Positions 28,573-32,553 of a DNA stretch of 64,000 bases are shown here, one piece after another. The number at the start of each line of letters is the position of its first letter. Position 1 is the stretch's first letter. Under the pieces are notes generated by a model that was not told the origin of the DNA, made no database searches, and saw nothing but the letters and a program-made list of their open reading frames with translations. The stretch lies in assembly GCA_013388855.1 (NCBI GenBank), contig JACAEM010000034.1, positions 1 to 64,000 on the forward strand, read 5' to 3'. The position numbers were made by a program, and so were the translations under genes. Origin of the DNA: Chloroflexota bacterium. GTDB taxonomy: Bacteria > Chloroflexota > Anaerolineae > Anaerolineales > Villigracilaceae.

Positions 28573-28703
28573 ATATCTTTTTGCTGTATAATCTGCTCAC
28601 TCACTTGGAAGGAGGTGCTTCGCCGCATAGTTATTCCCCCTTTTCCCCGTACTACATACAACAGTAAGTAATCCCAACCCTAATTTCTCTCAGGAGGAGA
28701 AAC

Positions 28704-30434
28704 GTGAAACGAAACCTTTTTGCTTTACTGTCGCTGTTGGTGCTCGCCAGCATGGTTCTGGCGGCCTGCGGCGGCGGTGCGGCGACTGAAGCGCCTGCTA
28801 CCGAAGAACCAGCGCCTCCCCCCACGGAAGCGCCTGCCACCGAGGCCCCCACTGAAGCCCCAGCCATGCCTGAATTCGAGGGTAAATCCTTGATGGCGGC
28901 TGACTGCGATTCGACCGGCATCATCAAGGGCGTGGAGGCCACCGGTCAATATGAAGTGACCTTCACCCTGTGCCAGCCCGATCCCGCCTTCCTCTCGAAG
29001 ATTGCCTTCAGCGTGTATGGCATCTATCCCGAGGAATGGCTTGAAGCCACTGCCGGCGCGGAAGGCCGCACCAGCGAAGGTCTTGAGAAACCCATCGGCA
29101 CCGGTCCCTACATGGTCAGCGAGTGGAACCGCGGCGAAAGTATCACCTTCACCGCCAATCCCAACTACTGGGGCGATGCGCCCGCGGCAGAGACGCTGGT
29201 CTTCCGCTGGTCGACCGAGTCCGCCGCCCGCCTGCTTGAGTTACAGTCCGGCACAGTGGATGCCATCGACAATGTCGGTCCCGAAGATTTCGAGACCGTC
29301 AGCAATGACGCGAACCTCAAACTGATGGAACGCCCGGCATTGAACACCTTCTATATTGCGATGACCAACACATTTGCGCCGTTCGATAATCAGGCTGTTC
29401 GTCAGGCGATTGCCAAGGGTATTGACCGTCAGCGCATCGTGGACACCTTCTATCCTCCCGGATCCGAGGTCGCTTCCCACTTCACTCCCTGCGCCATCCC
29501 CAACGCCTGTGTTGGAGATCCCTGGTATGAATTCGATCCGGAGGCCGCCCGCGCTGAATTGGCTGCCGCCGGTTTCCCCGATGGTTTCAAGACCAAGCTG
29601 TACTATCGTGACGTGGTTCGCGGCTATCTGCCGCAGGTCAGCAATGTGGCTCAGGACATCCAGGCTCAGTTGAAGGAAAACCTCAACATCGATGCTGAGA
29701 TCGTCGTCATGGAATCCGGCGCCTTCATCGAAGAGTCCTCAGCCGGACGCCTCGATGGCTTCTACCTGCTCGGTTGGGGCGCAGATTTCCCGCATGTGAC
29801 CAACTTCTTGGATTACCACTTTGGCGCCGCCAACCCGCAATTTGGCAACCAGTCGCCAACCTACACCGAAATTTTGGCGCAAGCCGCCCAGATCGCGGAC
29901 GTAGCCGAAGCTGCTCCCCTGTACGAACAGGCGAACAACGCCATCCGCGAATATGTTCCGATGATCCCTGTGGCTCATGGTGGGTCCGGAACCGCCTGGC
30001 GCGCTGATGTGACCAACCCGCAAGCCAGCCCGCTCAGCAATGAGGTCTTCTATGTTTCCGATCCCGGTGGGCGCGATGTCTTCGTCTGGATGCAAAACGC
30101 TGAACCGATCAGCCTGTTCTGCGCTGACGAGACCGACGGCGAATCTCTGCGTGCCTGCGAACAGGTTGTGGAAGCTCTCTACAGCTACGAGATCAACGGC
30201 ACTGCAGTCGAGCCTGCCCTGGCTGAGTCTTGTGAACCGAATGACACGCTGGACGTTTGGGTCTGCACCCTGCGCCAGGGCGTGACCTTCCACGATGGCA
30301 CGACCTTCGACGCGAACGATGTGGTGGCAACCTTCACCATGGGTCTCGATGCTTCGTCACCGCTCCACAAGGGCAATACGAATGTGTTCGAGTACTACGA
30401 CTATCTCTGGGGCTTGATGAACAAGCCCCAATAG
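28704..30434 (+). CDS. Family-5 peptide/nickel-type ABC transporter solute-binding lipoprotein, circularly permuted order
   Basis: GTG start; lipobox VLAACGGG; GVEATGQYEVTFTLCQPDPAFLSKIA...GTGPYMVSEWNRGESITFTANPNYWGD at the N-terminus, while EPISLFCADETDGESLRACEQVVEALYSYEINGTAVEPALAESCEP...GVTFHDGTTFDANDVVATF is at the C-terminus. Confidence 0.9.
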   Translation: MKRNLFALLSLLVLASMVLAACGGGAATEAPATEEPAPPPTEAPATEAPTEAPAMPEFEGKSLMAADCDSTGIIKGVEATGQYEVTFTLCQPDPAFLSKIAFSVYGIYPEEWLEATAGAEGRTSEGLEKPIGTGPYMVSEWNRGESITFTANPNYWGDAPAAETLVFRWSTESAARLLELQSGTVDAIDNVGPEDFETVSNDANLKLMERPALNTFYIAMTNTFAPFDNQAVRQAIAKGIDRQRIVDTFYPPGSEVASHFTPCAIPNACVGDPWYEFDPEAARAELAAAGFPDGFKTKLYYRDVVRGYLPQVSNVAQDIQAQLKENLNIDAEIVVMESGAFIEESSAGRLDGFYLLGWGADFPHVTNFLDYHFGAANPQFGNQSPTYTEILAQAAQIADVAEAAPLYEQANNAIREYVPMIPVAHGGSGTAWRADVTNPQASPLSNEVFYVSDPGGRDVFVWMQNAEPISLFCADETDGESLRACEQVVEALYSYEINGTAVEPALAESCEPNDTLDVWVCTLRQGVTFHDGTTFDANDVVATFTMGLDASSPLHKGNTNVFEYYDYLWGLMNKPQ

Positions 30435-30508: not shown

Positions 30509-31588
30509 ATGGTTCAATACCTGTTACGGCGTGTCATAGCATCCATCCCGGTATTATTTGGAATTTTGATCGTTACATTCATTATCGCGCGTGTGATTCC
30601 CGGCGATCCCTGCCGCGCCATTCTCGGAGAAAAAGCCACGGCGGAGATTTGCGAACGTTTTATCGAACTGCATGGACTGGACAGACCCATCCATGAACAA
30701 CTCTTCATTTACATGGGTGAGGTTCTGCGCGGTGATTTTGGAGAGTCCATTCGCTTCAGCATGCCTGTTACACGTCTGCTGATCGAACGCCTCCCTACGA
30801 CCGTCGAATTGAGCATCTCGGCCCTTTTGGTAAGCCTTGTTATTGGCATTCCTCTTGGTATTATTTCTGCGGTAAAACATAATTCCTACATCGATGTAAT
30901 TACAATGGTATGGGCAAATATAGGAGTCTCAGTGCCCGTGTTCCTGCTCGGACTGATGCTGGCATATGTATTTTCCCTCCTATTGAAGGATACCCCGTTC
31001 TGGCTCCCCCCATCCGGGCGCGTCAGCCCGGGAGTCCCCGACGACCCCTTTTACGAAGTCTGGAAATTGACGGTACCCGAATCCGGGTTTTTGCCGGCAT
31101 TCTACCAGTTCATCAGCAGGCTCAACATCCTGAACGCCTTGTTGACATCCAACTGGGAACTTCTCAAAGACTCGATCAAACATCTCATCCTGCCGTCGTT
31201 AGCACTCGGCACAATCCCCATGGCATTGATTGCCCGCATGGCACGCTCCGCCATGCTCGACGTGCTTGGGCAGGATTACATCCGCACTGCGCGCGCCAAA
31301 GGATTACGGCAACGCGTGGTTGTAATGAAACATGCCTTTCGGAACGCGCTGCTCCCGCTCGTGACAATCATCGGGCTTTCATTGGGAAGCCTGCTCGGCG
31401 GTGCAGTCCTGACCGAAACGATCTTCGGACTCTCCGGCGTGGGACGCACCTTGTTCGAAGCAATCACCGCACGCGACTACGGTATCGTCCAGGCATTTAC
31501 AGTTGTGATCGCCGTCTTCTTTGTAATCATTAACCTGCTCGTAGACCTCTCCTACAGCTACCTCGATCCCCGTATCCGGCTTGAATAG
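30509..31588 (+). CDS. ABC transporter permease (DppB type)
   Basis: MVQYLLRRVIASIPVLFGILIVTFIIARVIPGDPCRAILGE...LGQDYIRTARAKGLRQRVVVMKHAFRNALLPLVTIIGLSLG EAA loop. Confidence 0.94.
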   Translation: MVQYLLRRVIASIPVLFGILIVTFIIARVIPGDPCRAILGEKATAEICERFIELHGLDRPIHEQLFIYMGEVLRGDFGESIRFSMPVTRLLIERLPTTVELSISALLVSLVIGIPLGIISAVKHNSYIDVITMVWANIGVSVPVFLLGLMLAYVFSLLLKDTPFWLPPSGRVSPGVPDDPFYEVWKLTVPESGFLPAFYQFISRLNILNALLTSNWELLKDSIKHLILPSLALGTIPMALIARMARSAMLDVLGQDYIRTARAKGLRQRVVVMKHAFRNALLPLVTIIGLSLGSLLGGAVLTETIFGLSGVGRTLFEAITARDYGIVQAFTVVIAVFFVIINLLVDLSYSYLDPRIRLE

Positions 31589-31596
31589 GTCGATCC

Positions 31597-32553
31597 ATGA
31601 CAAACGCTGAAAACAAAATCGCAACGCTAGACGCAGAAGGCATTTCCCTCAAGTCGGTTAGTTTATGGCAAATTACATGGCGGAGGTTATTTCGCCGCCT
31701 ATCTGCCGTTGTCGGGATGATAGTACTGGGCGTCTTGATCGTGATCGCGCTCACTGCACAATGGCTGGCACCATATGACCCGATCGTCCCCATGATGGAC
31801 CTGACTCCTCCGGAGCCTGTCAAGGCGCGTCAGGATCCGTGCATTCATCTTTTTGGCTGTCCCAGGGATCAACCTCAACATATCGCAGGCATCGATGGCA
31901 ACGTTCGCGACCAGTTCAGCCGGCTGTTGTACGGCGCCCGCCTGAGCCTGATGATCGGCTTCTCCACCGTGGGGTTTGCCATCATCATCGGAACGATACT
32001 CGGCGCGGTTGCCGGTTATCTTGGCGGCTGGGCGGATAATGTCATCATGCGCTTCATGGACGTGTTACTGGCATTTCCATCCCTGCTCCTGGCGATTGCC
32101 ATCGTCACGGTTCTAGGTCCAGGACTGATTAATGCTCTGCTTGCCATCGGCATTGTCTCCATCCCGGCATACGCACGCGTCGTACGCGCCAGCGTACTAT
32201 CAGTGCGTGAGATGGAATACGTCTCCGCAACGCGCGCCCTGGGTGGGTCGAACATCCAAATCCTGTTCCGCCGCATCCTGCCCAACGCCCTGACACCGCT
32301 GATCGTGCAAGGAACGCTCGGCATCGCCACCGCCATTCTGGATTCCGCCGCGCTCTCCTTCCTCGGTCTCGGCGCACAACCGCCCACCCCGGAATGGGGA
32401 GCCATGCTGGGCGCGGAACGCAATCAAGTCTTCACCGCCCCTCACTTGGTCTTCCTCCCCGGCATCGCCATTGCCCTAACCGTGCTCTCCTTCAACCTTC
32501 TGGGAGATGGACTGCGCGACGCCCTAGACCCGAGATTGGCGCACGTCAGTTGA
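31597..32553 (+). CDS. ABC transporter permease (DppC type)
   Basis: YVSATRALGGSNIQILFRRILPNALTPLIVQGTLGIATAILDSAALSFLGLGAQPPTPEWGAML. Confidence 0.94.
   Translation: MTNAENKIATLDAEGISLKSVSLWQITWRRLFRRLSAVVGMIVLGVLIVIALTAQWLAPYDPIVPMMDLTPPEPVKARQDPCIHLFGCPRDQPQHIAGIDGNVRDQFSRLLYGARLSLMIGFSTVGFAIIIGTILGAVAGYLGGWADNVIMRFMDVLLAFPSLLLAIAIVTVLGPGLINALLAIGIVSIPAYARVVRASVLSVREMEYVSATRALGGSNIQILFRRILPNALTPLIVQGTLGIATAILDSAALSFLGLGAQPPTPEWGAMLGAERNQVFTAPHLVFLPGIAIALTVLSFNLLGDGLRDALDPRLAHVS

Follow-up and report, generated by a model that had tools for sequence, protein, structure and literature searches.

The gene at 28704-30434 (+) of the analysed window (the whole 64,000-nucleotide stretch at the start of contig JACAEM010000034.1 of a Chloroflexota genome) very probably encodes a working DppA-type peptide-binding lipoprotein that was permuted once, long ago. 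We propose that this protein, referred to as CP1, is a peptide-binding protein of DppA/OppA type, anchored to the membrane and of Venus-flytrap form (solute-binding protein (SBP) family 5, cluster C), with a circularly permuted chain: the initial ~110 residues of the mature canonical form now stand behind its last. The likely functional effect would be that the lipid tether and the N-terminus leave the N-lobe at another point. The original prediction, made from the sequence alone, was of a circular permutation of a family-5 SBP, and it was borne out by the swapped PF00496 matches, the homologs, the AlphaFold model and the constant junction.

Segment order and predicted fold

The open reading frame has a GTG start and a TAG stop and encodes 576 amino acids, and a ribosome binding site (aggaggag, 28692..28699, +) could be read directly in front of it. 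PF00496, homologs and a local profile identified the product as a permuted family-5 solute-binding lipoprotein of the CP1 type. On the basis of the sequence and the CP1 alignment, the first 22 codons (28704..28769) encode a lipoprotein signal peptide with the lipobox LAAC, whose Cys22 is invariant in the 56 aligned CP1 proteins. A disordered tether rich in Ala, Glu, Thr and Pro follows (28770..28874); over most of its length the model pLDDT is below 50. The remainder consists of segment B (residues 62-450, 28887..30053), which is the canonical second part and now comes first, and segment A (residues 455-572, 30066..30419), the canonical N-terminal part and now the C-terminal one. The junction between the old C-terminus and the old N-terminus, located by the profile ends and 123 proteins, lies at 30048..30071; all of these features are on the plus strand. 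The original prediction had placed the moved segment at about 30065-30431, which was right within a few residues.

Searched against the genome itself, PF00496 gave split matches in swapped order, as had been anticipated for this alignment. Profile positions 61-365 were found at 28896-29834 (215.2 bits) and positions 2-52 at 30207-30359 (45.1 bits), the second stretch lying in the same open frame as the first. Together they represent the whole profile once, and the complete protein scored 261.2 bits (cut-off 32.4), which places it in SBP_bac_5 by score. The segment order, however, is swapped relative to the aligned solved members; a colinear order is usual in SBP_bac_5 and lies outside the curated PF00496 definition. 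Since the order is swapped, CP1 was filed as a permuted variant and not as an ordinary SBP_bac_5 member. Two further comparisons gave the same order. In phmmer searches against DppA and HbpA chains in the PDB, residues 72-428 matched residues 129-486 of HbpA2 and residues 468-568 matched residues 18-125. On a local profile of 503 positions, built from canonical Chloroflexota SBPs, residues 69-445 corresponded to positions 114-498 and residues 458-573 to positions 2-112, and segments A and B covered this profile once without overlap.

The new ends were opened in an N-lobe loop, between FEYYDYLWG and IKGVEATGQYEVTFTL. In all 123 CP1 sequences measured, a set that includes near-identical loci, the old C- and N-termini are linked by 4-6 residues, and the C-terminal tail beyond segment A is 2-10 residues long.

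An AlphaFold2 model of the protein, run with 56 CP1 sequences, showed one confident globule (pLDDT 91.4, pTM 0.86), with pLDDT values of 91-98 across nearly all of segment A. Model residues 70-457 superposed on residues 148-537 of DppA (5f1q) with a Z score of 30.7 and an rmsd of 2.1 Å over 385 residues, and a three-domain bilobed fold of the cluster C (DppA/OppA) kind is predicted for the chain. Because sequential aligners cannot place a permuted segment, the docking of segment A in the canonical N-lobe position was inferred from the model confidence and its complementarity with segment B; the structure searches were sequential, and a failure to align segment A was not taken as absent similarity. 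Cys68 and Cys90 (28905..28973, +) are invariant in the CP1 alignment, and Cys473 and Cys485 are present in 54 of 56 CP1 proteins. A Cys68-Cys90 disulfide may staple the new N-terminus, and disulfides of this kind may staple the new ends.

Distribution and descent of the permuted family

Colinear full-length relatives of CP1, with 40-93% identity, were found in 62 of 101 relative genomes, including the single-contig assemblies G011 and G025. A scan of named genomes with the CP1 protein returned 62 loci, 60 of which are CP1 relatives and the last two ordinary distant SBPs. The named CP1 loci are mostly from Anaerolineae, with others from Ardenticatenia and Acidimicrobiia, and they include those of the cultured isolates Bellilinea caldifistulae GOMI-1 and Thermanaerothrix daxensis GNS-1 (L078 and L082). 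The same colinear order in independent assemblies and isolates puts the read continuity, which the original prediction had wanted confirmed, beyond doubt. One CP1 copy in the metagenome-assembled genome G001 (L040:4205-5921 (+), also L103) is frame-broken, either by an assembly error or as a pseudogene; it was treated as a local fault and excluded.

The window belongs to a draft genome of 46 contigs, in which an assembly artefact or a local misjoin could mimic a permutation. The recurrence of the order in the relative genomes and the cultured isolates rules this explanation out, and the low dN/dS on either side of the junction also stands against it, so that its probability is negligible. Against four relatives, dN/dS was 0.06-0.13 in segment B and 0.03-0.14 in segment A by simple Nei-Gojobori counts, with dS partly near saturation. 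Both halves of CP1 are under strong purifying selection.

The permuted form is also found beyond the close relatives. In a sample of 301 genomes of the phylum, it was present at 47% identity or more in about 37 genomes, other classes included, and the nearest colinear canonical proteins showed only about 30-40% identity. When 13 genomes of the class were surveyed with PF00496, six had a CP1-type match, called from a profile start at 61-64 alone, and nearly all other listed matches began at profile positions 1-20. CP1 is thus an old conserved family and no singleton, which goes beyond the original prediction.

For the trees, the CP1 proteins were re-rotated into canonical order. The 49 CP1 rows then grouped as a single clade within the canonical family-5 proteins (SH-aLRT 100; its stem has a length of 1.02), and the homologs with the same order, which had been sought, are thus numerous and of one clade. 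The CP1 proteins of Acidimicrobiia (Actinomycetota; L089-L099, L108 and L112) were placed inside the Chloroflexota clade, which suggests, as far as sequence comparison goes, that Acidimicrobiia acquired the permuted gene horizontally, together with its operon. The nearest non-permuted relatives were the Chloroflexota SBPs L133, L135, L138 and L144 and L035 and L036, which have the canonical order, unlike CP1, and share about 30-35% identity with it in segment B and 31-42% in segment A.

Segment A was closest to the group of L035 and CP2 (a second permuted form, described below; ~41%), and segment B was slightly closer to the L133 group (~35%). This small difference hints at a mosaic of two paralogs, and it would fit a fusion of two truncated SBPs that do not make one fold, with segment B from one gene and an N-terminal piece from an adjacent paralog. 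In AU tests, however, neither of the two groups was rejected as sister of segment A or of segment B (p 0.31 and 0.087), so that a shared sister is compatible with the data and the hint is without significance. CP1 also stayed together when either segment was used by itself to build the tree. A pair of adjacent truncated SBPs, which the original prediction had named as its refuting case, is ruled out by the single complementary coverage of the profile, with each segment occurring once, and by the constant junction; the single confident globule argues in the same direction. Hence, we regard a fusion without one fold as improbable. A mosaic origin from two paralogs that still gave one permuted fold is possible, and the function would be unchanged by it. 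The reading we prefer is that the chain was permuted a single time, in an ancestor of the family within Chloroflexota, with tandem duplication, fusion and loss of the ends as the probable route, and that the permuted family was passed on to Acidimicrobiia. A tandem-duplicated or fused intermediate was not seen in an unsystematic look.

Ligand residues and operon context

In E. coli DppA, R383 and D436 bind the carboxyl and amino groups of the dipeptide (PMC12136057). Their counterparts in CP1, taken from the phmmer pairwise alignment with the PDB chain, are R306 (codon 29619-29621, +) and D361 (codon 29784-29786, +), both in segment B; the former is present in 55 and the latter in all of 56 CP1 proteins. 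Since these two residues are kept, short peptides are the likely ligand on sequence grounds, and di- or short peptides would be bound in the cleft. The best NCBIfam SBP model was the DppA equivalog NF043070, which scored 167.4 bits against a cut-off of 1005, and no NCBIfam equivalog was reached. Because this score is far below equivalog level, the CP1 protein was not called DppA.

Like E. coli DppA (1dpp, 8z1z; SBP family 5, cluster C, PF00496), to which it is homologous over the whole chain, CP1 has a segment B that superposes at ~2 Å, the Arg and Asp that hold the two ends of the dipeptide, and permeases of the DppB/DppC type. Unlike DppA, it has the order B-A instead of A-B, termini in an N-lobe loop with the lipoprotein tether attached there, and extra conserved cysteines (68/90 and 473/485).

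A DppB/OppB-type permease gene (30509..31588, +) begins 75 bases downstream of the CP1 gene and is followed by a DppC/OppC-type permease gene (31597..32553, +). Flanks of 4.5 kb or more were available for 51 loci; DppB and DppC are encoded directly behind the CP1 gene in 48 of them, and in 19 of these 48 DppD and DppF follow as well. In the window only DppB and DppC stand beside the CP1 gene and the DppD/DppF ATPase genes are not adjacent; genes of this ATPase type are present elsewhere in the same genome (L117). Since the permeases in the window lack adjoining DppD and DppF, they would have to share the ATPases of another system, e.g. that of L117. The ligand would be handed to the DppBC permease of the downstream genes, working with ATPases from other loci of the genome.

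The missing neighbouring ATPase genes could also mean that the permuted protein is no longer a transport SBP but, for example, a receptor or sensor, with the permutation reflecting relaxed constraint. A few CP1 loci are without permeases and fusions of CP1 to other SBPs exist, both of which would agree with this. On the other hand, the permeases directly behind the gene in nearly all loci and the full DppBCDF sets in 19, the invariant or nearly invariant ligand-anchoring residues and the strong purifying selection argue against it, and we consider a loss of the transport role very unlikely.

The fusions carry a second binding domain at the new N-terminus of CP1. This domain is SBP_bac_1 in L037:5159-8032 (-), Peripla_BP_6 in L080:6732-9590 (+), L081:4-2331 (+) and L181:1117-3441 (-), and SBP_bac_3 in L193:1105-3549 (-). 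In L037, L080 and L193 one lipobox serves both domains. A separate odd architecture was observed on another contig of the window's genome (G000:C2), where a family-5 SBP domain (residues ~961-1285) lies in a 2175-residue open reading frame with repeat-like extracellular parts (L118:50-6577 (+)).

Precedent and further permutations

In a literature search with most subscription journals outside its range, we found no report of a permuted family-5/cluster C SBP, only TpMglB-2 and engineered sensors. TpMglB-2 (Tp0684) of Treponema pallidum, termed 'Type Ic/Cluster Bc', is a natural, conserved circular permutant among the ABC lipoprotein SBPs and has kept its binding, and its authors suggest a link of the permutation with membrane tethering (PMC4990184). 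It is a glucose-binding member of cluster B, an SBP family unrelated to the PF00496/cluster C family of CP1; its moved portion is made up of strands 1-3 of the N-lobe sheet, and the hinge is crossed a fourth time. The passages on it describe no family-5 member (PMC4990184). CP1 does not fall into the cluster B glucose/galactose-binding fold of Type Ic/Cluster Bc, its matches being to PF00496 and cluster C. TpMglB-2 is the closest precedent found for CP1, which is an SBP_bac_5 homolog throughout with a changed segment order.

The SBP family was also found permuted at two other points. In CP2 the segments run B2-A-B1 and the chain is broken between PDGLSEVTI and KIPLTLYYMPVTRFY; this form occurs in five genomes of the order sample (L033:4227-6221 (-), L034:4200-6002 (-), L214, L215 and L216); a CP2 query of the 301-genome phylum sample returned no CP2. 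Its canonical orthologs (L217-L226) share up to 75% identity with it (~70-75%), and CP2 and these orthologs head the same SBP-DppB-DppC-DppD(-DppF) operon. An extra loop is present exactly at the CP2 break in the canonical L035 and L036. Since CP2 lies within the L035/L036 clade and apart from CP1 in the tree, it represents an independent permutation event; its monophyly was supported at 77/99 in a small tree.

CP3, an 880-residue protein with an Ig-like tail, is encoded in the same genome outside the window (G000:C19:87113-89755, equal to L116:7113-9755, -), with a DppB-C-D-F set behind it, and has homologs in 50 of 101 relative genomes. In CP3, PF00496 positions 148-349 precede positions 25-150, the second stretch alone being under the cut-off. 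Its model was of moderate confidence (pLDDT 75.6), and in structure searches residues 61-403 matched OppA proteins in their C-terminal halves, the best match being to residues 334-755 of 7fi3 (Z 26.0, rmsd 4.3 over 333 residues). CP3 is likely a permutation, less firmly shown than CP1 and CP2.

It is conceivable, if doubtful, that the family-5 SBPs of Chloroflexota are a permutation hot spot, with at least three independent events (CP1, CP2 and CP3) at three break points, which might have been fixed because a re-sited lipid-tethered N-terminus changes anchoring or docking, or admits a second binding domain as in the CP1 fusions.

Circular permutation is rare among natural large two-lobed proteins, and DppA/OppA proteins are a very widespread family of peptide SBPs; here one permuted form has become fixed across a phylum, and two more appear to have arisen nearby. 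Annotation that expects the N-terminal part first would call such permuted SBPs truncated or fused. For the design of biosensors, the break points offer ready insertion sites. CP2 and its canonical orthologs, at ~70-75% identity, are rare natural before-and-after pairs, and since they stand in the same operon, the cost or benefit of a permutation could be measured on natural proteins.
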